Assembly (NCBI GenBank): GCA_017557885.1
Contig: JAFYXV010000002.1
Coordinates: forward strand, 1-64,000
DNA from: a bacterium
Lineage (GTDB): Bacteria > Auribacterota > UBA3054
DNA: 64,000 bases
Direction of reading: 5' to 3'
Part shown: positions 1 to 10,045 of the stretch, in pieces
Position numbering within the stretch: position 1 is the first letter of the stretch
How the letters are laid out: each line of letters starts with the position of its first letter
Notes under the pieces: generated by a model
Seen by the model: only the letters and a program-made list of their open reading frames with translations
Database searches by the model: none
What the model was told of the DNA's origin: nothing
Translations under genes and position numbers: made by a program

Positions 1-150
1 AAAATCAGAAATGTATTCATATTCCTCTTCGTTCAGATAGTCGGCCCGCAATTCAAAAAGATCAACGTAAGGTGCATATTTCTTCGCCAGCAGAGAATCC
101 TCTTCCAGCGTTGAGGCGGTGAGAGTAAGACAGACTTGACCGGTGACCAT
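1..150 (-). CDS. aroD: Type I 3-dehydroquinate dehydratase, N-terminal part (cut by window edge)
   Basis: The minus strand from the ATG at 148-150 gives 50 codons without a stop up to the window edge. The start MVTGQVCLTLTASTLEED and the later VDLFELRADYL match the first beta strands of class I dehydroquinases (family pattern ICLTLTG..LEED and ELRxD, where the Glu helps bind the substrate). The enzyme dehydrates 3-dehydroquinate to 3-dehydroshikimate, step three of the shikimate pathway. The ATG lies 4 bp after the stop of the aroK-aroB fusion, so it should be the next gene of the same operon. No aroE is visible in the window. In several PVC bacteria aroD is fused to aroE, so the missing part could carry a shikimate dehydrogenase domain, but that cannot be seen here. 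Confidence 0.8.
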   Translation of the reverse strand, partial: MVTGQVCLTLTASTLEEDSLLAKKYAPYVDLFELRADYLNEEEYEYISDF

Positions 151-154
151 TCGC

Positions 155-1534
155 TTACTCCAGTGAGATCTTTGTGGCTGTTACGCTGCCCCAGGCGCAG
201 GGCAGGGAGAAAGTGACGGTGTTGCCGGAGCGCTTTTTGTCGCGGCGCATGATTAATTTCAGGTCGTCGAGCGTGATGCCTTCGGGAAGCTTGGTGGGAA
301 GGCCGTGGGCGGAAAAGATCTCAGAGAGTTCTTCAGGGAAACTATCTTTGGCAAGGCCCATTCTTTGGGCGATCCTGGCTTCCTCGACGCAGCCTATAGC
401 CACCGCTTCGCCGTGGCTTATCGCAAAGTTGCTCTTAAGTTCCAGGGCGTGGCCGACGGTGTGACCGCAGTTCAAAAGAATGCGGCGGCCGCAACGCTCA
501 AAAGGATCTTCCCTTACGATATCGACTTTCACCTGCAGATTGTCGGCGATCTCCCTGGCGGTGGGGATCTCGGAGAACTTGGGTTCACTTCCTTTGATGA
601 GAGCGTGCTTGATCATTTCCGCCTTGCCGACTTTCAGTTCTTTGACAGGGAGAGTTTTCAGTCTCTCGGCATCGATAAGCACGAGTCTGGGGGAATGGAA
701 AGCGCCCACCAGATTCTTGCCGATCGCAAGGTCGCAGCCGGTCTTGCCGCCGGTGGAGGCGTCCACCATGGCAAGCAAGGTCGTGGGGAAATTTATCCAG
801 TCGATGCCGCGCATCCAGGTGGCGGCGGCGAAGCCTACGAGATCGCTGGTCACTCCCCCGCCGAAGGAAGCGATCGTATCCTTCCTGCCGATGGCGTGAT
901 CGTTCAGTATCCCCCAGATCTTTTCAATGGTAGAAATATTTTTAAACTCTTCGCCGGAAGGGATAAGTTCCAGAGCGGTATCTTTCAGAGCTTCGGGCTG
1001 GCAGTTGGCGGCGTTGGTGTCGGCGATGACAAGTTTGGCGAAGCCGTTGAGATCGCCCATGGCTTCACCCACGATGACCAGAGAGGTGGGAAGCGCAAAG
1101 GCTTTGGCGATCCTGCTCTTGAAGGAAGCGTAATGCTCTTTTCTTTCTTCGGCTTTGTTGCCCAGAGGGCGGGCGCCGGGGTTCCTTTGGAAACGCTTTT
1201 CCAATTCTTCCTTGGAAGGCGCTTCCAGAAGCCACACTAGGCCGAGGCTTTCCGTAAGCTTGCGGTTCTCGGGGTCGAGGAGCGTGCCGCCGCCCAGGGA
1301 GACGACGCTGTCGCTGAAATTCTTTTTCTGGGTGAGCTCTCGCAGCGTTTCCTTTTCGATGCTGCGGAAAAGCGCTTCCCCGCCTTCCTCGAAGATCGCG
1401 GGAATGGTCTTGTGGGACTTGGCTTCTATCTCGCTGTCGAGATCGAAAAAAGTTTTGCCCAGGCTCAGCGCCAGGTTTTTGCCGACGGTGGTCTTTCCGC
1501 TGGCGGGAGGTCCGTAAAGGAAGATAGCTGACAT
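155..1534 (-). CDS. aroKB: Bifunctional shikimate kinase / 3-dehydroquinate synthase (AroK-AroB fusion)
   Basis: Two enzymes in one 459-residue chain. Residues 1 to about 150 are shikimate kinase: P-loop GPPASGKTT at 8-16, shikimate-binding GGGTLL at 81-86 and the lid RNPGARPLGN near 117-126. From about 155 to the end is 3-dehydroquinate synthase: GGGVTSDLVGF near 226, FPTTLLAMVDASTGGKTG near 249 and the metal-binding region NCGHTVGHALE followed by SHGEAVAIG. The synthase part is about 305 residues, shorter than free-standing AroB (about 350), with its N-terminal Rossmann part trimmed. The fusion joins steps two and five of the shikimate pathway, so the product of one half is not the substrate of the other. 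The gene starts 1 bp after tyrA and ends 4 bp before aroD. Cytoplasmic. Confidence 0.95.
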   Translation of the reverse strand: MSAIFLYGPPASGKTTVGKNLALSLGKTFFDLDSEIEAKSHKTIPAIFEEGGEALFRSIEKETLRELTQKKNFSDSVVSLGGGTLLDPENRKLTESLGLVWLLEAPSKEELEKRFQRNPGARPLGNKAEERKEHYASFKSRIAKAFALPTSLVIVGEAMGDLNGFAKLVIADTNAANCQPEALKDTALELIPSGEEFKNISTIEKIWGILNDHAIGRKDTIASFGGGVTSDLVGFAAATWMRGIDWINFPTTLLAMVDASTGGKTGCDLAIGKNLVGAFHSPRLVLIDAERLKTLPVKELKVGKAEMIKHALIKGSEPKFSEIPTAREIADNLQVKVDIVREDPFERCGRRILLNCGHTVGHALELKSNFAISHGEAVAIGCVEEARIAQRMGLAKDSFPEELSEIFSAHGLPTKLPEGITLDDLKLIMRRDKKRSGNTVTFSLPCAWGSVTATKISLE

Positions 1535-1535
1535 T

Positions 1536-2336
1536 TTATTTTTCCTCCCCTTGCAGTTTTTCTTTTATAGCCTGGCCTTCCGCGAGCTGGGAGATCAGGC
1601 TCTCCCTGTCATCGTTTGCGATGGCGGTCTGGAAATCCGTGAGCCTTTCGATCATTCTCTCGAGGACCGGCAGAAGCTCCGTTTTGTTCATGAGAAACAA
1701 TTCCGACCAGAGCTCGGGGTCGGGCGCGCCGACACGGGAGAGGTCCCTAAAACTGCCGGCAGAAAAGCCGGAGCGCTTAAGGGCAAGCTCGTCCCTCAGG
1801 TAGGCGGAGGAAACAAGGTGGCAGAGCTGGCTGGTGTAGGCGATCCTTTTGTCGTGATCTTCGGGCGTGGTGAAAATGACTTCCTTGAAGCCCAGTTCGG
1901 TGAAGAAAGGTACAATGTCTTCCGCAATTTTTTGATCCTGAGGGAAGGGCGTCAGGATCATGGAAGCGCCTCGGAATAGCTCCGCGTCGGAATTCTCGAA
2001 ACCACTGACTTCCTTCCCGGCCATGGGGTGTCCGCCGATGAAGGTGAAGCTGCCGTTCATCTTTGGAGCGAGCTCTTTTATGACTGCGCTTTTTACGCCG
2101 CAGACGTCGATAACAAGCGCGCCTTTTTTCAGATCGGCGGCGTGCTCAAGGAGCCATTTTACGGTAAGCGTCGGGTGAAGAGCGATGATGACGAGGTCGG
2201 AATTCGAGACCTCTACAGGATCGTTCCTGTCGATGCCCCTGACGTTGTAGCCGGCCTTTTGGGCGGCCTTGAAAAAAGAGCCGCCGATGAGGCCGAGGCC
2301 AACGATGGCGATTTCTTTGAGATCAGATCTCTGCAT
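1536..2336 (-). CDS. tyrA: Prephenate dehydrogenase
   Basis: This 266-residue protein begins with an NAD(P)-binding Rossmann motif GLGLIGGS (residues 13-20) and carries GGHPMAGKEVSGF, the TyrA substrate-loop signature. It oxidatively decarboxylates prephenate to 4-hydroxyphenylpyruvate, the committed step to tyrosine. Arogenate specificity cannot be excluded from sequence reading. It stops soon after the helical dimerisation domain and has no C-terminal ACT domain, so it probably lacks allosteric tyrosine inhibition; control may come from the operon attenuator instead. Its start overlaps the end of pheA by 14 bp, which suggests translational coupling. Confidence 0.93.
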   Translation of the reverse strand: MQRSDLKEIAIVGLGLIGGSFFKAAQKAGYNVRGIDRNDPVEVSNSDLVIIALHPTLTVKWLLEHAADLKKGALVIDVCGVKSAVIKELAPKMNGSFTFIGGHPMAGKEVSGFENSDAELFRGASMILTPFPQDQKIAEDIVPFFTELGFKEVIFTTPEDHDKRIAYTSQLCHLVSSAYLRDELALKRSGFSAGSFRDLSRVGAPDPELWSELFLMNKTELLPVLERMIERLTDFQTAIANDDRESLISQLAEGQAIKEKLQGEEK

Positions 2337-3468
2337 ACGCTCCTAAGAAAGTGAACTGCTCGATGTCCGGGTCAGTGGAGAGCTCGGATAAAAGCTTGAT
2401 GGCGCCCGGGTCGTTGGGCTTGGACTCGAACTCGAAGGTGAATCGGAACTCGAATTCCATGCCGGGAATGGGACGCGATTCCAATTTGGTGAGATTCAGC
2501 CCGATGGAGGAGAACCTTGCCAGAATGTTGGCAAGAGAACCAGGCTTATGAGGCAGCGTCATGATAAGGGAGATCTTGGAGGCGTCCTTGTAGATCTCCA
2601 GTTCCCTGGATATGCAGATGAAGCGGGTGAAGTTGGAGGGCGTGTCGCAGATCTCGTCCTTTATAATTTCGAGATTGTAAAGCTCGGCGCACTTCCTGGA
2701 GGCGATGACCGCCTGATCCGTGCGGCCGCTTTCAGAAAGCTCCCGGGCGGCCAGGGCCGTGTTGGCGGTGGGCGTCTGCTTGACGTTCCGCATATTAAGC
2801 AGGAACTTCGAGCACTGGGAGAGCGCCTGGGGATGGCTCTTTATTTCCTTGATGTCGCTCATCCTGACGCCTTTCTTGGCCAGAAGGACGTGGGAGACAT
2901 GTAATTTGCAGGCCTTGACGATCCTGAAGTCGTGGCGCAGCATGTTGTCATAGACCGTGGTGACGGAGCCCGCCGAGGAGTTTTCGATTGGCAGTACGCC
3001 GTACTGGCACATGCCCTTCTCCACGGCGCTGAAGATGTCGGCGAAGGAGTTGAAGAAGAGAATGGCGGGAAACTTGAAGAAAGTGGAGGCCGCCTGCTGG
3101 GAGAAGGCGCCTTCCGTCCCCTGGCAGGCCACCGTGGCGTGGGAGGGAAACTCTGCCGGAGCCATGGCCACAGCCCTTTTGATCTCGCTTTCCAGTTTGC
3201 TTTCCTTCGTGATGAACTTGCGTTCCTTGGCGCGGGAAAGGCTGAAGAGTGTACTAAAGAGCATGGCGACTTCGTTTTCGTATTCCGGTCCGGCGGCGAG
3301 GGACAGCCTGTTTAGGATCTCCCTTTCCCTCTTGGGATCGCTGACGGGCAGATTTTCCTGCTGCTTCACTTCAGCGACTTTTTTGACGCACTCGAAGCGC
3401 TTCAAATAAAGCTCGACTATTTTGTCGTCGATGGCGTCGATCTCGTTTCTGATGTTTTCCTTGTCCAT
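2323..3468 (-). CDS. pheA: Chorismate mutase / prephenate dehydratase (P-protein)
   Basis: The 381 residues split into an AroQ chorismate mutase (about 1-90, IRNEIDAIDDKIVELYLKR), a prephenate dehydratase (about 110-290, CQGTEGAFSQQAA near 115 and the catalytic NFTRF motif near 285) and a C-terminal ACT domain (about 300-381). The ACT part keeps both Phe-binding signatures, GSLANIL (the usual GALA region) and LESRP, so phenylalanine feedback inhibition is expected. It converts chorismate to prephenate and then phenylpyruvate. The prephenate can also feed the neighbouring TyrA. The gene lies 43 bp downstream of aroF and overlaps tyrA. Confidence 0.95.
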   Translation of the reverse strand: MDKENIRNEIDAIDDKIVELYLKRFECVKKVAEVKQQENLPVSDPKREREILNRLSLAAGPEYENEVAMLFSTLFSLSRAKERKFITKESKLESEIKRAVAMAPAEFPSHATVACQGTEGAFSQQAASTFFKFPAILFFNSFADIFSAVEKGMCQYGVLPIENSSAGSVTTVYDNMLRHDFRIVKACKLHVSHVLLAKKGVRMSDIKEIKSHPQALSQCSKFLLNMRNVKQTPTANTALAARELSESGRTDQAVIASRKCAELYNLEIIKDEICDTPSNFTRFICISRELEIYKDASKISLIMTLPHKPGSLANILARFSSIGLNLTKLESRPIPGMEFEFRFTFEFESKPNDPGAIKLLSELSTDPDIEQFTFLGAYAEI

Positions 3469-3502
3469 AATTCAACTTTCCGATTTATCTCAAAGTATTT
3501 AT

Positions 3503-3508
3503 ATTATA
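3503..3508 (-). promoter_or_regulatory. Possible internal -10 box ahead of pheA
   Basis: On the minus strand a perfect TATAAT sits in the aroF-pheA gap and would start RNA about 30 nt before the pheA ATG. I find no good -35 hexamer at the right distance, so this is only a weak candidate for an internal promoter. Confidence 0.2.
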
Positions 3509-3511
3509 CCC

Positions 3512-4519
3512 TTAACGGCAAGCGTAGGGCCTGACCGCCTTTATCGCCTTCATGGTCTCGGCGAACATGGCCGGCGTCTGGCTCTGGGCGCCGTCGCACT
3601 TGGCCTTGGGCGGATCGTTGTGGACTTCGATGATGAGGCCGTCCGCGCCGATGGCCGTCGCGGCCACCGCCACGGGATGCACGAGCCTGGCTACGCCGGT
3701 GGCGTGACTGGGATCGACCACCACCGGGAGGTGCGAGAACTGGTGGAGAAGCGGCACCACGGAAAGGTCGATGGTGTTCCTGGTGGCCGTCTCAAAGGTC
3801 CTGATGCCGCGTTCGCAGAGGATGACGTTGGGGTTGCCGGACGCCATGATGTATTCCGCGCTCATCAGAAGTTCCTGCAAAGTGGAGGAAAGTCCCCTCT
3901 TCAGAAGGATGGGCTTCTTGGTGTTGTGGCCGACTTCCTTAAGAATGTCGAAGTTCTGCATGTTGCGGGCGCCGATCTGGATAACGTCCACGTCGTTGAA
4001 GTATTCGAACTGGGAGAAGTTCATAAGCTCGGTGACGATAGGAAGGCCCGTTTCCTTCTTGGCCGCCAGAAGCATCTTCAAGCCTTCCACGCCAAGACCC
4101 TGGAAGGAGTAAGGGCTCGTCCTGGGCTTGAAGGCGCCGCCCCGGAGAAGCGTCGCGCCGGCGGCTTTGACCGCCTTGGCCACCTCAATTATCTGCTCCT
4201 CGCTCTCCACGCTGCAGGGGCCGGCGATGACCTGGAAATTACCGCCGCCGATAAGCACGCCGCCGCAGTCTATTATGGAGTCATCGGGATGGAACTTGCG
4301 GTTGGCGGCCTTGTAGGGGTCGCCCACGCGCTGCACGCTGGCCACCACGTCGAGGGCGGAGACCAAATCAATGTCGAGATGCGCCACGTCGCCGACGCAG
4401 CCAATAAGAGTTTCATGGGAACCGACGGAGATGTGCGGGTCGATGTTCTGGGCCTTCAGCCAATTGATGAGGTTGTCCACCTGGCTTTTCTGGGCGCCCT
4501 GCTTGATGATGATTATCAT
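3512..4519 (-). CDS. aroF: 3-deoxy-7-phosphoheptulonate (DAHP) synthase, FTL-domain type
   Basis: A 335-residue class I DAHP synthase of the Thermotoga-like type: a ferredoxin-like regulatory domain at residues 1 to about 65, then the TIM barrel with AGPCSVESEEQI (near 98), GGAFKPRTSPYSFQG (near 127) and VDPSHATG (near 267). It condenses phosphoenolpyruvate with erythrose 4-phosphate, the entry step of the shikimate pathway. The N-terminal ferredoxin-like domain in this family binds Phe or Tyr for feedback inhibition. The start has AAGGA about 8 nt upstream. As first structural gene of the operon it lies 30 nt behind the attenuator terminator, so entry into the whole pathway is set by that switch. 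Confidence 0.95.
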   Translation of the reverse strand: MIIIIKQGAQKSQVDNLINWLKAQNIDPHISVGSHETLIGCVGDVAHLDIDLVSALDVVASVQRVGDPYKAANRKFHPDDSIIDCGGVLIGGGNFQVIAGPCSVESEEQIIEVAKAVKAAGATLLRGGAFKPRTSPYSFQGLGVEGLKMLLAAKKETGLPIVTELMNFSQFEYFNDVDVIQIGARNMQNFDILKEVGHNTKKPILLKRGLSSTLQELLMSAEYIMASGNPNVILCERGIRTFETATRNTIDLSVVPLLHQFSHLPVVVDPSHATGVARLVHPVAVAATAIGADGLIIEVHNDPPKAKCDGAQSQTPAMFAETMKAIKAVRPYACR

Positions 4520-4548
4520 AGTTTTTCCTTATTTGTTGATTATTATTT

Positions 4549-4590
4549 GCTTAAAAAGAAAGAGCCTGGCTTTGCTCAAGCCAGGCTCTT
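4549..4590 (-). terminator. Attenuator terminator before aroF
   Basis: On the minus strand a perfect 12-bp stem (AAGAGCCTGGCT / AGCCAGGCTCTT) with a 7-nt loop TTGAGCA is followed by TTCTTTTT. It ends 30 nt before the aroF ATG and after the leader peptide, so it should stop RNA inside the leader. Its loop and flanks (4569-4581, GCTTGAGCAAAGC) are complementary, with one bulged base, to a segment of the leader coding region (4638-4649, GCTTTCTCAAGC). This gives a competing antiterminator helix of 12 bp. Confidence 0.85.
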
Positions 4591-4618
4591 TTCGTATTCG
4601 GAATCCACTTTTATTCAA

Positions 4619-4693
4619 CTACGACAAGGTTCCCCCAGCTTGAGAAAGCTCGGTGTAATAAAAGTAGAACCAATAGCCGAAATTGATTTTCAT
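4619..4693 (-). CDS. Aromatic-rich leader peptide of the aro operon attenuator
   Basis: A 24-codon reading frame on the minus strand, starting at the ATG 4691-4693 and ending at TAG 4619-4621. Residues 5-13 read FGYWFYFYY: three Phe, four Tyr and one Trp codon in nine. It lies between a well-placed promoter and an intrinsic terminator and is followed 100 nt later by the DAHP synthase gene, the architecture of trp/phe-type attenuation. Ribosome stalling in the aromatic run would leave the next bases (4638-4649) free to pair with the terminator stem and loop and let transcription continue into aroF. The SD is weak (GGA about 16 nt upstream). Expected to be a regulatory peptide with no further function. 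Confidence 0.85.
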   Translation of the reverse strand: MKINFGYWFYFYYTELSQAGGTLS

Positions 4694-4725
4694 TTGGAGA
4701 TAGTTTTCCGTGATTGATTGCGAAT

Positions 4726-4754
4726 ATGGTAGCACTTTCATTTTCATTTTGCAA
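4726..4754 (-). promoter_or_regulatory. Sigma-70 promoter of the aromatic amino acid operon
   Basis: Minus strand: TTGCAA (4749-4754) and TACCAT (4726-4731), each 4 of 6 matches to consensus, with a 17-bp spacer. Start of RNA would be near 4719, about 26 nt before the leader-peptide ATG, which fits an attenuator leader of about 170 nt. Confidence 0.5.
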
Positions 4755-4891
4755 GGGCTTAGGGAGAAACGCTGGCCAAAAAAAAGATTAAGCGGTGGAT
4801 TTTTCCGGAAGTTTTTTGCTAAACTTATAAAAAATACATTCCGACAACGAAAGGAAGTATCAAGTTCACCGCTTCCCAAAAGGAGAATAAA

Positions 4892-5320
4892 ATGAAAACT
4901 GCAAGACAGCTTTCCGTGTTTTTGGAGAACAAGCCTGGCCACGCCTACAACATCTGCAAGACCTTAGGCGACGCCGGCATAAACATCTTTACGCTGTCCT
5001 TGGCCGACACGAATCAGTTCGGGCTTCTGCGTTTGATCGTGGAGAAACCCGAAGCGGCCGGCGAGCTGCTTAAAAAAGGAGGAGTGATAGTCAACATAAC
5101 CGAGCTTCTGGCGGTCAGGATAGACAACCGTCCGGGAGTATTGGCCAAGATCTACGAACTGCTCTCCTCTCTTGACATCAATTTGGAATACGCTTACGCT
5201 TTCGCCATGCGCCGCATCTTCTTATTGAGAGTGAGCGACAACGAAAAAGCCTTCCAGATCCTGAGCGAGAACGGCTTCACCCTTCTCTCCCACGAGGAAC
5301 TCTTCTCCGACGAAAACTAA
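4892..5320 (+). CDS. Tandem ACT-domain amino acid-binding protein (first copy)
   Basis: The 142 residues are two ACT domains (about 1-70 and 72-142) and nothing else, with ligand-loop motifs ENKPGHAYNICKTLGDAGIN and RIDNRPGVLAKIYELLSS. Such proteins bind small amino acids at domain interfaces and act as sensors. Free-standing double-ACT proteins are often encoded beside PaaK-type ligases, as here, 15 bp upstream of one. The ligand is unknown; an aromatic amino acid is the natural guess given the context. AGGAG is well placed ahead of the ATG. It is roughly 60 percent identical to the protein at 6759-7187 by eye. Transcription is divergent from the aro operon, with a 370-bp shared control region. 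Confidence 0.85.
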   Translation: MKTARQLSVFLENKPGHAYNICKTLGDAGINIFTLSLADTNQFGLLRLIVEKPEAAGELLKKGGVIVNITELLAVRIDNRPGVLAKIYELLSSLDINLEYAYAFAMRRIFLLRVSDNEKAFQILSENGFTLLSHEELFSDEN

Positions 5321-5335
5321 AACAAAGATAACAAT

Positions 5336-6649
5336 ATGGAAAAATCCGCCCTACAAGCCTTAGCGCAAAAAGACTTCATGAGCCGCGACGAACTGGAGTC
5401 CATCCAGCTTTCGAGGCTTAAAAACATAGTTTCCCACGCCTACAAAAATCAGGCGCTCTTCAGGTCCCGCATGCAGGAGAAAGGTCTCGACGACACCTGC
5501 ATCAAGGAGATGAAGGACATCCAGAAGCTGCCCTTCTTCAAGAAAGTTGACCTCAGGGACACTTATCCCTTCGGCCTGCTTTCCGTCCCCATGGATGACA
5601 TCATCAGACTGCAGGCCAGTTCCGGCACCACCGGAAGCCCTATCGTCATCGCCTACACCAGGGAAGACGTGGCCTGCTGGCAGGAAGCCACCATGCGCGC
5701 CCTCATGATCGCCGGCATAGGTTCTGGCGACATCATCCAGAACGCCTACGGCTACGGCCTCTTCACCGGCGGCATGGGGTTGCATTACGGCGCCGAAGGA
5801 CTGGGCGCCACCGTATTGCCCATTTCCAGCGGCAACACCGAGCGCCAGATCAAACTGATGAGCGACTTCGGCGTGACCTGCATAAGCTGCACGCCGAGCT
5901 ATTTCCTCCACATCATCGAAAAAGCCAAGCAGCTGGGCTACGACTTCAAGAAGATGAAACTAAGGAACGGCATCTTCGGCGCCGAGCCCTGGACCAACGA
6001 GATGCGTCAGAGGATCGAGGAAGAATCCGGCATCAAGGCCTGGGACATCTACGGACTGACCGAGATCAGTGGACCTGGCGTGGCCATGGACTGCCCCGCC
6101 AGAACGGGACTGCATATGTTCGAGGACCTCTATTATCCCGAGATCATCGACCCCGAGACCGGCGAAGCGCTGCCTGACGGCACGGAAGGCGAACTGGTCA
6201 TCACGACTTTGCACAAGTTCGGCATGCCCATGATAAGGTACCGCACCAGGGACATCTCCGTCATCGTCAAGGGGACCTGCGAATGCGGCCGCACCATCAG
6301 GAGAATAAAACGCATCGACCACAGGAACGACGACATGCTGATAATAAGAGGCGTCAACGTCTTCCCGAGCCAGATCGAAGCGGCGCTCCTGACGATCCCG
6401 GGCGTCCAGCCGCACTACCACATCATCGTCAGGCGCCACGGCGACCTGGACACCCTGGAAGTGCAGGTGGAGCTTTCCGCCGAGCTCTTCGGCGACACCA
6501 TCCGCTCCATCGAAGTCATCCAGAAGAAGATCGGCAACGCCATCAAGAGCATCATCGGCCTGGCCGTCACGGTCACTCCCGTGGAGCCGGGAAGCTTAGA
6601 GCGCTCCATGGGCAAAGCCAAGCGCGTCACCGACCTGCGCAACAAATAA
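5336..6649 (+). CDS. paaK: Phenylacetate-CoA ligase family protein (first copy)
   Basis: A 437-residue adenylate-forming enzyme of the PaaK family, normal length. Seen: SSGTTGSPIVIAYT (95-108, ATP phosphate loop), IYGLTEISGPG (adenine/acid region), MPMIRYRTRD, and the C-terminal DDMLIIRGVNVFPSQIEA hinge. A cysteine pair follows YRTRD (CECGR), typical of the family. It makes aryl-CoA from phenylacetate-like acids, ATP and CoA via an acyl-AMP. The exact acid (phenylacetate, 4-hydroxyphenylacetate or indoleacetate) cannot be read from sequence. It is paired with the upstream ACT protein. Cytoplasmic. Confidence 0.88.
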   Translation: MEKSALQALAQKDFMSRDELESIQLSRLKNIVSHAYKNQALFRSRMQEKGLDDTCIKEMKDIQKLPFFKKVDLRDTYPFGLLSVPMDDIIRLQASSGTTGSPIVIAYTREDVACWQEATMRALMIAGIGSGDIIQNAYGYGLFTGGMGLHYGAEGLGATVLPISSGNTERQIKLMSDFGVTCISCTPSYFLHIIEKAKQLGYDFKKMKLRNGIFGAEPWTNEMRQRIEEESGIKAWDIYGLTEISGPGVAMDCPARTGLHMFEDLYYPEIIDPETGEALPDGTEGELVITTLHKFGMPMIRYRTRDISVIVKGTCECGRTIRRIKRIDHRNDDMLIIRGVNVFPSQIEAALLTIPGVQPHYHIIVRRHGDLDTLEVQVELSAELFGDTIRSIEVIQKKIGNAIKSIIGLAVTVTPVEPGSLERSMGKAKRVTDLRNK

Positions 6650-6672
6650 GCGCTCCGTTTTTCCGCGCTTTT

Positions 6673-6706
6673 CATACCGGGCAGGACCAACCTCTTGCCC
6701 GGTATG
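6673..6706 (+). other. Hairpin between the two ACT-PaaK pairs
   Basis: A perfect 11-bp inverted repeat (CATACCGGGCA / TGCCCGGTATG) with a 12-nt loop lies 24 bp after the first paaK. It is followed by CTATTATATAAG, not by a run of T, so it is a poor intrinsic terminator. It may stabilise the 3' end of the upstream message, or mask the region just before the second pair. Confidence 0.45.
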
Positions 6707-6758
6707 CTATTATATAAGATTAGAAACTATTTTCTCTAACCAAAGGAGCCTAAAATTA

Positions 6759-7187
6759 ATGGAAACCGTAAAACAGCTTTCCCTCTTTTTGGAAAACAAG
6801 CCCGGACACGTCTATAGCATCTGCAAGGCTTTGGGCGACGCCGGAATAAACATCTACACCCTGACTCTGGCCGACACCGCCCAGTTCGGCATCCTGCGTC
6901 TGATCGTCGAGGATGCGGAATCCTCGAAGGCCCTATTGGAGAAAGAGGGCTTCATCGTCAACATCGCCGATGTCCTGGCGGTCAGGATCGACAACCAGCC
7001 CGGAAGATTGGCGCAGGTCGCCGAGATCCTGAACAAAGAGGGCATCAACGTGGAGTACGTTTACGCCTTCGCCAACCGCCACATCTTCCTCTACCGCGTG
7101 GACGATACGGAAAAGGCCTATCAGAAACTTATATCCAACGGATTCTGCGTACTGAGTTCGCACGAACTTTTCAACACCAATAAATAA
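6759..7187 (+). CDS. Tandem ACT-domain amino acid-binding protein (second copy)
   Basis: A 142-residue double-ACT protein, the same length and layout as 4892-5320, with motifs ENKPGHVYSICKALGDAGIN and RIDNQPGRLAQVAEILN. The two copies differ most at the loop that usually touches the ligand (DTNQFGLL against DTAQFGIL are close, while NRPGVLAKI against NQPGRLAQV differ), so they may sense different amino acids. An AAAGGAG site precedes the ATG. It lies 10 bp before the second PaaK gene and starts the unit ACT-PaaK-symporter. Confidence 0.85.
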   Translation: METVKQLSLFLENKPGHVYSICKALGDAGINIYTLTLADTAQFGILRLIVEDAESSKALLEKEGFIVNIADVLAVRIDNQPGRLAQVAEILNKEGINVEYVYAFANRHIFLYRVDDTEKAYQKLISNGFCVLSSHELFNTNK

Positions 7188-7197
7188 GACTGGAAAA

Positions 7198-8514
7198 ATG
7201 AAACTGGAAAACAAGATTTGGGATAAGGCGGAATGCTTATCAAGAGACGAGATCGAGAACATTCAGGTCCAGAGACTGAGAGCGACTGTCAAGCAGGTGA
7301 TGAACGTCCCCTTCTACGCAGAGAAGTTCAAGGAGATCGGCATAGGGCCTGAGGACATAAAAAGCGTAGCCGACGTGAAGCATCTCCCCTTCACGACCAA
7401 GGCCGACATGCGCAACAACTATCCTCTGGGACTGATGGCTGTGCCCAAGGAAAAAGTTTTGCGTTTCCACGGCTCCTCCGGCACGACGGGCAAACCGACC
7501 TTCGTCGCCTACACGAAAAACGACCTTGAGATGTGGTCCGACCTTGTGGCCCGCTTTTTGTACGCCGGCGGCGCCCGCCCCGGCAACACAGCCCAGATCA
7601 GTTTCGGCTACGGCCTCTTCACCGGCGGCTTCGGATTGCACTACGGCCTCGAGAAGATCGGCTCCTCCATCATCCCCGCCGCCAGCGGTAACACCAGGCG
7701 CCAGTTCACGCTCCTGCAGGACCTTCAGCCGGAACTTTTGGTCTGCACTCCGACCTACGCCCTGCGCCTCATAGAATACATGGAAGAGGAGAAGATCCCC
7801 AGGGAAAGTTTGAATCTGAAAGTGGCCTTCCTGGGCAGCGAGCCCTGGACCGAAGAGATGCGCCTCTACATCGAGGATAAGCTCCAGGTCAACACCTGCA
7901 ACAACTACGGTCTCTCGGAAGTCATAGGGCCTGGCATTTCTGGCGAGTGCGTCTATCACACCGGCATGCACATCCAGGAGGATTACTTCCTGGTGGAATG
8001 CCTGGATCCCGAAACGCTGGAGCCCGTTCCGGACGGACAGCTGGGAGAGCTGGTCATCACCGCCCTCAACAAGGAAGCTATGCCCATGATAAGATACCGC
8101 ACCAGAGACCTGGCCTACCTCATCAGCGACACCGACTGCCCCTGCGGCAGAACGACCAAGAGGATGAGCAGAATTAAAGGACGCTCCGACGACATGCTGA
8201 TAATAAGGGGCGTCAACGTCTTCCCCAGCCAGGTTGAAGAAGCGCTTCTGCAGTGCAAGGACGTCACGCCGAACTTCCTCATCGTATTGGACCGCCCCGG
8301 CTCCCTCGACCGCTCGGTCGTGAAAGTGGAGATGGCCCCGGCCTTCTTCTCCGACAAGATGAGCGAGATGCAGATGCTTAAAAACAGGCTGGAGGAGACC
8401 ATCCGCTCCTATACCGGCATCCACTTCGAAGTGGACCTGGTCCAGCCGCAAAGCATCGAGCGCTTCACCGGCAAAGCGGCCCGCGTAATCGACAATCGAC
8501 CCAAGGAAAAATAA
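7198..8514 (+). CDS. paaK: Phenylacetate-CoA ligase family protein (second copy)
   Basis: A 438-residue PaaK-family ligase with SSGTTGKPTFVAYT (phosphate loop), NYGLSEVIGPG, MPMIRYRTRD, a CPCGR cysteine pair and DDMLIIRGVNVFPSQVEE. It has all the elements needed to activate an aryl acid with ATP and CoA. Compared with the first copy the acid-binding region reads SFGYGLFTGGFGLHYG rather than NAYGYGLFTGGMGLHYG, so the substrate could be another arylacetate. The stop is 3 bp before the symporter ATG, tying ligase and transporter into one message. Confidence 0.88.
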   Translation: MKLENKIWDKAECLSRDEIENIQVQRLRATVKQVMNVPFYAEKFKEIGIGPEDIKSVADVKHLPFTTKADMRNNYPLGLMAVPKEKVLRFHGSSGTTGKPTFVAYTKNDLEMWSDLVARFLYAGGARPGNTAQISFGYGLFTGGFGLHYGLEKIGSSIIPAASGNTRRQFTLLQDLQPELLVCTPTYALRLIEYMEEEKIPRESLNLKVAFLGSEPWTEEMRLYIEDKLQVNTCNNYGLSEVIGPGISGECVYHTGMHIQEDYFLVECLDPETLEPVPDGQLGELVITALNKEAMPMIRYRTRDLAYLISDTDCPCGRTTKRMSRIKGRSDDMLIIRGVNVFPSQVEEALLQCKDVTPNFLIVLDRPGSLDRSVVKVEMAPAFFSDKMSEMQMLKNRLEETIRSYTGIHFEVDLVQPQSIERFTGKAARVIDNRPKEK

Positions 8515-8517
8515 AAA

Positions 8518-9987
8518 ATGTCATCCTTAACAACCATCCTTCTAGTTGCCTTCATTATTCTTCTGGTCACCACCGGCGTTTACGCCATGCGCAGGACCAA
8601 GAACCTTGAGGACTTCTTCCTGGGCGGCCGCAACGTCGGCCCCTGGATCTCGGCCTTCTCCTATGGAACCAGCTATTTCTCCGCGGTCATCTTCATCGGC
8701 TTTGCGGGAAGCTTAGGCTGGAAATTCGGCTATCCCGCCATGTCCATCGGAATAGGCAACGCCATTTTCGGCGCTCTTTTGGCCTGGATCGTTTTGGCAA
8801 AGAGAACGCGCCGCATGACCCAGAACCTCGGCGCCATGACCATGCCGGGCTTCTTCTGCGAGCGCTATGCGGCGCCGTATTTGAAGCCGCTGGCCGCCAT
8901 CATCATTTTCATTTTCCTTGTCCCCTATTCCGCTTCCGTTTACAAAGGCTTGGGCTATCTTTTCGTCGAGAACTTCAACATCCCCTACGAAGTGGCCTTG
9001 TGGCTCATGACCGGCGTGGCCGCCATCTACCTCATGCTGGGCGGGTACCTGGCCATGACTCTTACGGACTTCATCCAGGGCTTGATCATGCTGGCCGGCT
9101 CCATTCTGATCATGTGCCTTCTGGCCAACAAGGGCGGCGGCTGGGCTAATGTTTTCCAGAACATCACCGCCGCCAGGATCGAGCACACTCCCGTTTCCAC
9201 CTTCGGCTGGATAACGCTGGCTTCCGCCGTGATGATGACATCCTTTGCTCCCTGGGGCCTTCCTCAGATGATCCAGAAATATTACGCCATCAAGAACGAG
9301 AAGGTTATCTTCAAGGCCACGGTAATCACCACCATCTTCGCCATGATAATCGGCTGCGCGGCTTACTTCACCGGCGCCATGACGCACCTCTACTTCAAGG
9401 CCGGGCTCCCCGACGCCAAGGGCGTTTACGACACTCTGGTCCCCATCATGCTGAAGGATTGGCTGCCGGCTCCCCTGATGGCTCTGTTCCTGCTTTTAAT
9501 TCTGTCCGCTTCCATGAGCACGCTTTCCTCCCTGGTCTTGGTCTCAAGTTCGACAGTCACCATTGACTTCTACAAGGGCATCGTCAACAAGGAAGCTTCC
9601 GAGGGCACCACGGTCACATTGATGCGCATCATGAGCGCCATATTCCTGCTTCTCTCTTACGTAATAGCCCACTCCGACAGCAAGTTCATCGTGGACCTTA
9701 TGAGCTTAAGCTGGGGCGCCGTGGGCGGAGCCTTCATCGCTCCCTATCTTCTCGGCCTTTACTGGAAGGGCACGACCAAAGCGGGCGCCCTGGCCGGCAT
9801 CATCTGCGGCTTAGGCTTGCAGATGGTTTTGATCGCCCTTACTCCTCTTCCTTCCACGCTTTGCTCCATGATCTCCATCATCGTTCCTTTCGCGGTGGTG
9901 CCCATCGTTAGCTCCTTCACGGAAAAAGTTCCGCAGGAAGTGGTGGAAAAGGCTTTCAGAGTCCCCGCCGAAACGCCGGAACAATAA
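8518..9987 (+). CDS. Sodium:solute symporter (SSS family)
   Basis: A 489-residue membrane protein with about 13 hydrophobic segments. The start carries the SSS signature region NLEDFFLGGRNVGPW (TM1-TM2 loop), and YLMLGGYLAMTLTDFIQG near residue 180 matches the family pattern GG..A...TD..Q that lines the Na+ and substrate path. It takes up an organic solute with Na+. The family covers acetate, proline, pantothenate, sugars and phenylacetate, so the substrate is not fixed by sequence. Being 3 bp behind a PaaK gene, an aryl acid or another carboxylate is the reasonable inference. It ends 21 bp before a shared terminator. Confidence 0.88.
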   Translation: MSSLTTILLVAFIILLVTTGVYAMRRTKNLEDFFLGGRNVGPWISAFSYGTSYFSAVIFIGFAGSLGWKFGYPAMSIGIGNAIFGALLAWIVLAKRTRRMTQNLGAMTMPGFFCERYAAPYLKPLAAIIIFIFLVPYSASVYKGLGYLFVENFNIPYEVALWLMTGVAAIYLMLGGYLAMTLTDFIQGLIMLAGSILIMCLLANKGGGWANVFQNITAARIEHTPVSTFGWITLASAVMMTSFAPWGLPQMIQKYYAIKNEKVIFKATVITTIFAMIIGCAAYFTGAMTHLYFKAGLPDAKGVYDTLVPIMLKDWLPAPLMALFLLLILSASMSTLSSLVLVSSSTVTIDFYKGIVNKEASEGTTVTLMRIMSAIFLLLSYVIAHSDSKFIVDLMSLSWGAVGGAFIAPYLLGLYWKGTTKAGALAGIICGLGLQMVLIALTPLPSTLCSMISIIVPFAVVPIVSSFTEKVPQEVVEKAFRVPAETPEQ

Positions 9988-10007
9988 AAACTTTTCGCGC
10001 TGAAAAC

Positions 10008-10045
10008 AAAAAGCGGCAGCCTTCAAGGCTGCCGCTTTTTTTGCC
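10008..10045. terminator. Bidirectional intrinsic terminator
   Basis: A 14-bp perfect stem (AAAAAGCGGCAGCC / GGCTGCCGCTTTTT) with a 5-nt loop TTCAA, A-rich on the left and T-rich on the right. It lies between the convergent symporter and lipoprotein genes and can end transcription in both directions. Confidence 0.9.

Follow-up and report, generated by a model that had tools for sequence, protein, structure and literature searches.

Anatomy of the aroF leader region and the operon behind it

The window, the whole 64,000-nucleotide stretch of bacterial DNA that was analyzed, carries on its minus strand an operon headed by aroF, with a promoter, a short leader gene and an intrinsic terminator preceding, in that order, the aroF start codon (ATG 4519). 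Its features, in window coordinates, are as follows.

4726..4754, minus strand: promoter, with -35 TTGCAA, 17 nt, and -10 TACCAT with TGC before it (read from sequence; aroF and trpE share the motif in four genomes of the genus)
4619..4693, minus strand: leader peptide gene MKINFGYWFYFYYTELSQAGGTLS, 24 codons, ATG at 4693 to stop at 4619 (from genus conservation and shuffling)
4681-4655, minus strand: aromatic run FGYWFYFYY, leader codons 5-13
4666..4671, minus strand: segment 1, GGUUCU of codons 8-9 (Trp8-Phe9), whose partner in the protector fold is 4633-4628 (from folding)
4634..4649, minus strand: segment 2, antiterminator 5' arm GCUUUCUCAAGCUGGG (from folding; pairing kept in the genus)
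4569..4585, minus strand: segment 3, antiterminator 3' arm CCUGGCUUGAGCAAAGC, sharing bases with the 5' arm and loop of the terminator (from folding)
4559..4591, minus strand: intrinsic terminator, a perfect 14-bp stem (4591-4578 with 4572-4559) with a 5-nt loop and a T-rich tail to 4553 (from a terminator scan and folding)
3512..4519, minus strand: aroF, DAHP synthase (family match, NF006421 and TIGR01361), the only DAHP synthase found in the genome
2323..3468, minus strand: pheA, chorismate mutase-prephenate dehydratase
1536..2336, minus strand: tyrA, prephenate dehydrogenase
155..1534, minus strand: aroKB fusion, shikimate kinase and 3-dehydroquinate synthase

An earlier note on this DNA had placed a promoter at 4726-4754 and a 24-codon leader with FGYWFYFYY before aroF, and both are borne out. 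The promoter motif, TTGCAAANTNNAAANNNAAGTGCTANYAT, recurs with identical spacing in all four genus genomes searched for it, where it lies only 5' of aroF and trpE, bar one match with three mismatches; an open reading frame with eight aromatic residues out of nine arose in none of 3,000 dinucleotide-preserving shuffles of the 450 upstream bases. The three-mismatch match (L203), which is without a leader, was rejected as another promoter of this kind, and a general sigma-70 scan did not call the aro promoter (4754-4726). The terminator hairpin described in the same note is indeed perfect and followed by a T-rich tail, its stem being 14 rather than 12 bp in length. Likewise, the proposed 12-bp antiterminator joining 4638-4649 to 4569-4581 is a real pairing, but it contains one bulged C and comes to 16 bp in total, with 5 bp on one side of the bulge (4649-4645 with 4573-4569) and 11 on the other (4644-4634 with 4585-4575). 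On folding, the antiterminator stretch scores about -30 kcal/mol, with a z of -3.5.

Attenuation by leader peptides is classical, and three of its elements are present: a short leader ORF, read from sequence alone, with a run of codons for products of the pathway; an intrinsic terminator between the leader and the first structural gene; and, from folding and from covariation in relatives, an antiterminator that excludes the terminator and has its 5' arm directly 3' of the control codons.

The window begins at a contig end, and contig C5 (26600-36620, L173) shares positions 1-10021 with it, an overlap of 10 kb whose 12 mismatches all fall in tyrA, at 1845-2064. What might be taken for two aroF copies in the genome is, hence, an assembly overlap with a strain variant and not two genes; a second DAHP synthase candidate proved to be a KDO8P synthase. 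Contig C5 extends the operon by three genes, identified from inspection of the sequences and from gene order as an aroDE fusion, aroC and aroA, giving the order aroF-pheA-tyrA-aroKB-aroDE-aroC-aroA, which is identical in G001, G002, G004 and G007. The four genes that had been expected downstream of aroF are, then, three in the window (pheA, tyrA and aroKB) with three more on contig C5. With this continuation, one attenuator thus appears to precede all the steps by which PEP and erythrose 4-phosphate become chorismate, together with the Phe and Tyr branches.

The operon is flanked on one side by two divergent pairs of ACT-domain and phenylacetate-CoA ligase genes (window 4892-8514, plus strand) and on the other by convergent genes resembling those of the indolepyruvate ferredoxin oxidoreductase iorAB (L173 2879-4964, plus strand). 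These flanking genes possibly point to recovery or breakdown of aryl acids beside the biosynthetic genes. A further observation concerns AroF itself, which is 96-98% identical across the genus (window 3512-4519 versus L215, L216 and L192), as against about 61-65% for its neighbors tyrA and aroKB; either unusually strong constraint or a recent exchange might account for the difference.

Conservation in the genus and a paralogous leader region at trpE

Within the genus, aroF was found in the genome of the window and in six of the seven others, and the leader and terminator accompany it in all seven genomes that have it. Running within the genus the check for loss of the run or of the hairpin from homologous leaders, which the earlier note had suggested, we found both retained. 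The leader reads MNFNFGYWFYFYFTELSQAGGTLS in G002, G003 and G004; in the most divergent genome, G006, it is MLNRINYGYWYFYFTGLSQVGVLCRI, in which the start codon has moved, one Phe codon has been deleted and F and Y have been exchanged, while the frame, the aromatic run and the Trp are all retained. The leader and terminator region can be aligned with a mean column identity of 86%, whereas the four-fold sites of pheA, tyrA and aroKB reach only 50-64% identity when the window is compared with G002 or G006. Across the genus, the pairs between segments 2 and 3 are kept in 98.9% of cells and those of the terminator in 100%, owing to invariance along with occasional changes on one side only, which leave too little variation to judge covariation.

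A second switch of the same layout lies 5' of trpE (G000:C1 428970-429172, near 429030; L174, L191). It has the same promoter, a leader MNTKMNFWWWYAFSGLFQAGTTPRS with the control codons FWWWY, a segment 2, GCTTTTTCAAGC, that matches that of the aro attenuator, and the terminator GAGGGCCCCGCTTGAAAAAGCGGGGCCCTC. This WWW attenuator is present in all eight genomes of the genus; in five relatives of the same order whose upstream regions were read, a WWW leader 5' of trpE is absent. Sequence models of the aro and trp attenuators give one strong match each in every genome with the genes, plus the overlapping-contig copy, and no third strong match in the genus genomes. In a comparison by hand that counts pairs from the loop outward, both partners are changed between aro and trp at four pairs of the terminator stem and at one pair of the antiterminator, C-G in aro and U-A in trp. 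The 12-sequence alignment of aro and trp copies could not be used for terminator covariation counts because the difference in loop size, 5 versus 4 nt, puts the stems out of register.

Predicted folds, the proposed mechanism and its alternatives

The folding of the leader RNA was modeled with the ribosomal A site at each control codon in turn and 12 nt covered, counted from that codon's first base. For a ribosome at F5, Y7, W8, Y10 or Y13, the RNA transcribed ahead of segment 4 is predicted to fold into the antiterminator (-24 to -30 kcal/mol); when the A site holds the stop codon, the ribosome masks segment 2 and the terminator alone is predicted to form (-25). Once segment 4 is complete, the terminator of the window sequence is predicted to be the more stable of the two, and therefore the choice must be kinetic, made during transcription, as in the classical model. 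G006 likewise gives the antiterminator at the control codons and the terminator at the stop codon, but there the antiterminator wins even after segment 4 has been made. In the absence of a ribosome, the predictions for the window conflict before segment 4, with a protector fold of -31.8 kcal/mol (4712-4595), in which GGUUCU of leader codons 8-9 pairs with a downstream GGAACC, against an antiterminator of -35.5 kcal/mol. In the trp attenuator, the antiterminator forms with the ribosome at W10, whereas at W8 and W9 the best fold before the terminator is a different one.

From the conservation in the genus, the trp paralog, the folds that depend on ribosome position and the covariation in Clostridia described below, we regard it as highly probable that in this region a translating ribosome controls transcription of the whole shikimate/Phe/Tyr operon by attenuation, as the earlier note had held. 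We infer the ribosome stalling, the direction of the response and the identity of the amino acids read as follows. RNA polymerase would start near 4720, followed by a ribosome that translates the leader. A shortage of charged tRNA-Phe or tRNA-Tyr, and probably also of tRNA-Trp, would make the ribosome stall within codons 5-13 and leave segment 2 free to pair with segment 3; the terminator would then be blocked and aroF-pheA-tyrA-aroKB-aroDE-aroC-aroA transcribed. When all are plentiful, the ribosome would reach the stop codon and cover segment 2, allowing the 14-bp terminator to form and end transcription before aroF. The paralogous copy with its WWW control codons would govern trpE. On the codons present, Phe and Tyr are likely signals, while the chances that Trp is one are about even because there is a single Trp codon and the genome has a dedicated trp leader. 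The original claim that all three aromatics are sensed is partly supported, well for Phe and Tyr with their seven codons and, for Trp, through one conserved codon.

The strongest of the alternatives concerns this last point. It holds that the leader senses only Phe and Tyr, with Trp read by the trp paralog only and the Trp codon of the aro leader being a relic that it has in common with the trp leader or else kept for its GG in the protector helix. Seven of the eight aromatic codons in the run are indeed F or Y, Trp8 falls inside segment 1, the WWW leader is at hand in the same genome, and W is rare in aroF leaders overall, whose nine-codon windows hold 16 W versus 193 F and 190 Y; yet the TGG codon is invariant in the aro leaders of the genus, including that of G006, in which a neighboring Phe codon was deleted, a stall at codon 8 is predicted to free segment 2 as well as one at the other control codons does, and the operon also supplies the Trp branch. 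Weighing these points, we give this alternative a substantial chance, somewhat short of even.

The remaining two alternatives dispense with attenuation by a translating ribosome. One possibility is an ordinary constitutive terminator placed after a small gene with a product that works at another site, in the manner of the trans-acting peptide peTrpL, the overlap with segment 2 being incidental. Leader peptides can act in trans according to one report (PMC7298713), but here the part of the peptide encoded outside the RNA arms varies within the genus, the genus retains the pairing of segments 2 and 3, for which Clostridia show covariation, and trpE is preceded by the same layout, all of which makes such a reading very unlikely. 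Least probable of all is control of the terminator by a tRNA-binding T-box or a ligand riboswitch instead of by translation: motifs resembling T-boxes do occur 5' of aroF at other loci (L072, L152), but a scan of 3900-5300 against Rfam at a permissive E-value of up to 5 placed no T-box or riboswitch family on the leader. Such motifs, seen also at L105, would represent another RNA solution for the same gene.

Wider distribution, origin and comparison with known systems

We collected AroF relatives from 145 genomes and named contigs, amounting to 168 upstream regions. A short ORF with at least six aromatic codons in nine occurs in 59 of these; the reverse strand gives 7, and shuffles lead one to expect 1.6. 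When residue pairs are ranked by the number of such ORFs, F with Y comes first despite using only four codons; counts for residue triplets were rejected as a control for specificity, as codon degeneracy confounds them (LRS ranks first). Most of the leader-bearing loci belong to Clostridia, such as Oscillibacter valericigenes (MSTFTFAAEYRYFSFTYYFGKAYFGLAENECV) and Angelakisella massiliensis, and leaders with F/Y runs, together with terminators, precede aroF in most of the Clostridia examined (L095-L172). Several clostridial leaders share a segment, TTTGTGCTGCA, with the partner CCGCACRRAT. Outside the Clostridia, leaders were found in metagenome-assembled genomes (MAGs) labeled Treponema and Planctomycetaceae and in the distant genomes G138 (VYFTYFTYFNFNYYWFF) and G117 (FNFYFGYYWTW). 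No family reached its gathering score in an Rfam search with the leaders of 20 relatives.

With false or doubtful automatic leader calls excluded (such as L013, L043, L105, L136 and L164), cognate pairing between segment 2 and the terminator arm surpasses non-cognate pairing across 53 loci, with a z of -11.8 that is to be read with the relatedness of the loci in mind, as they are not independent. The covariation of the two hairpins, for which the earlier note had called, is seen in 14 loci of clostridial type, where covariation in each of the two mutually exclusive helices exceeds that of shuffled and slid controls, while the helices of the genus hardly vary.

No aromatic leader was accepted 5' of aroF in relatives of the same order and phylum, where several candidates turned out to be the ACT-coding end of a pheA gene lying upstream or else were too weak. 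Outside the genus, the closest AroF relatives, from Kiritimatiellae/Verrucomicrobia MAGs (L093 and L094, about 74% identity), are without a leader, and in L093 aroF lies directly 3' of an aroA-like gene. In an AroF tree (FastTree), the genus is placed amid clostridial sequences that carry leaders and a long way from its own order, whose AroF lacks one; because of this position, the gene was probably gained by transfer. The likeness of the aro leader to the trp leader tends to favor its having been copied from the latter over its having arrived with aroF. Taking the argument as a whole, we lean slightly toward a single attenuator having been duplicated between the trp and shikimate operons and retuned only by its control codons, yielding a tri-aromatic sensor over a complete pathway, within a large undescribed class of DAHP-synthase leaders in Clostridia and several other groups.

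If so, one RNA switch can tie the shared trunk of a branched pathway to all of its end products, with a sister switch for one branch, and the aro/trp pair is a natural experiment on how exchanging codons can retune an attenuator. For gut bacteria, the clostridial leaders would mean a further level of control over aromatic amino acid synthesis, and they would supply ready-made Phe/Tyr sensors. This wider, uncharted distribution is the more interesting part of the novelty: a known principle in an apparently unmapped place, with the same kind of switch 5' of the entry enzyme in many gut Clostridia. The open-access literature that we searched, with subscription papers mostly outside its reach, yielded no description of a clostridial class, a tri-aromatic leader or a trp/aro paralogous pair; as far as searched, a tri-aromatic leader that stands before an entire pathway, its paralogy with a trp leader and the distribution of F/Y leaders across Clostridia are new.

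Several known systems invite comparison. Phe_leader, which reads Phe 5' of pheA or pheST in enterics, is the best minus-strand Rfam match (RF01859) and aligns weakly over the full length of the leader and terminator, at 28.2 bits against a gathering score of 55 bits. Ribosome-mediated attenuation by several amino acids is already known from ilv operons, from aroR of C. glutamicum and, as a prediction, from uORFC-13-1 of Acholeplasma, and the statement in the earlier note that classical attenuators sense one amino acid does not hold in general: the C. glutamicum ilvBNC leader carries Ile, Val and Leu codons (PMC11857589), and aroR carries Phe-Tyr-Phe. Like the leader proposed here, that of ilvBNC sits at the common first enzyme of a branched pathway and reads all of the products, but these are branched-chain rather than aromatic amino acids. 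The C. glutamicum aroR-aroF attenuator likewise joins a leader with aromatic codons to attenuation 5' of a DAHP synthase operon; it differs, compared by function and Phe-Tyr-Phe content, in having three aromatic codons, with no Trp reported, and belongs to a different phylum. It is described as answering to Phe and not to Tyr (Neshat et al. 2014, as cited in PMC11802643; first listed in PMC4046766), and this disregard of Tyr despite a Tyr codon would, by analogy, count against the mechanism proposed here. A 2005 survey of Actinobacteria listed no leader-peptide attenuators for Phe or Tyr operons. The uORFC-13-1 class (PMC8632094), with 24 representatives confined to Acholeplasma and environmental sequences, is also a predicted leader ORF and terminator 5' of aroF, but has at least one Phe codon with no mixed aromatic run reported. 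The trp attenuator of the same genome, in turn, shares a homologous promoter, leader, segment 2 and terminator with the aro attenuator, and differs in carrying FWWWY 5' of trpE in place of FGYWFYFYY 5' of aroF.
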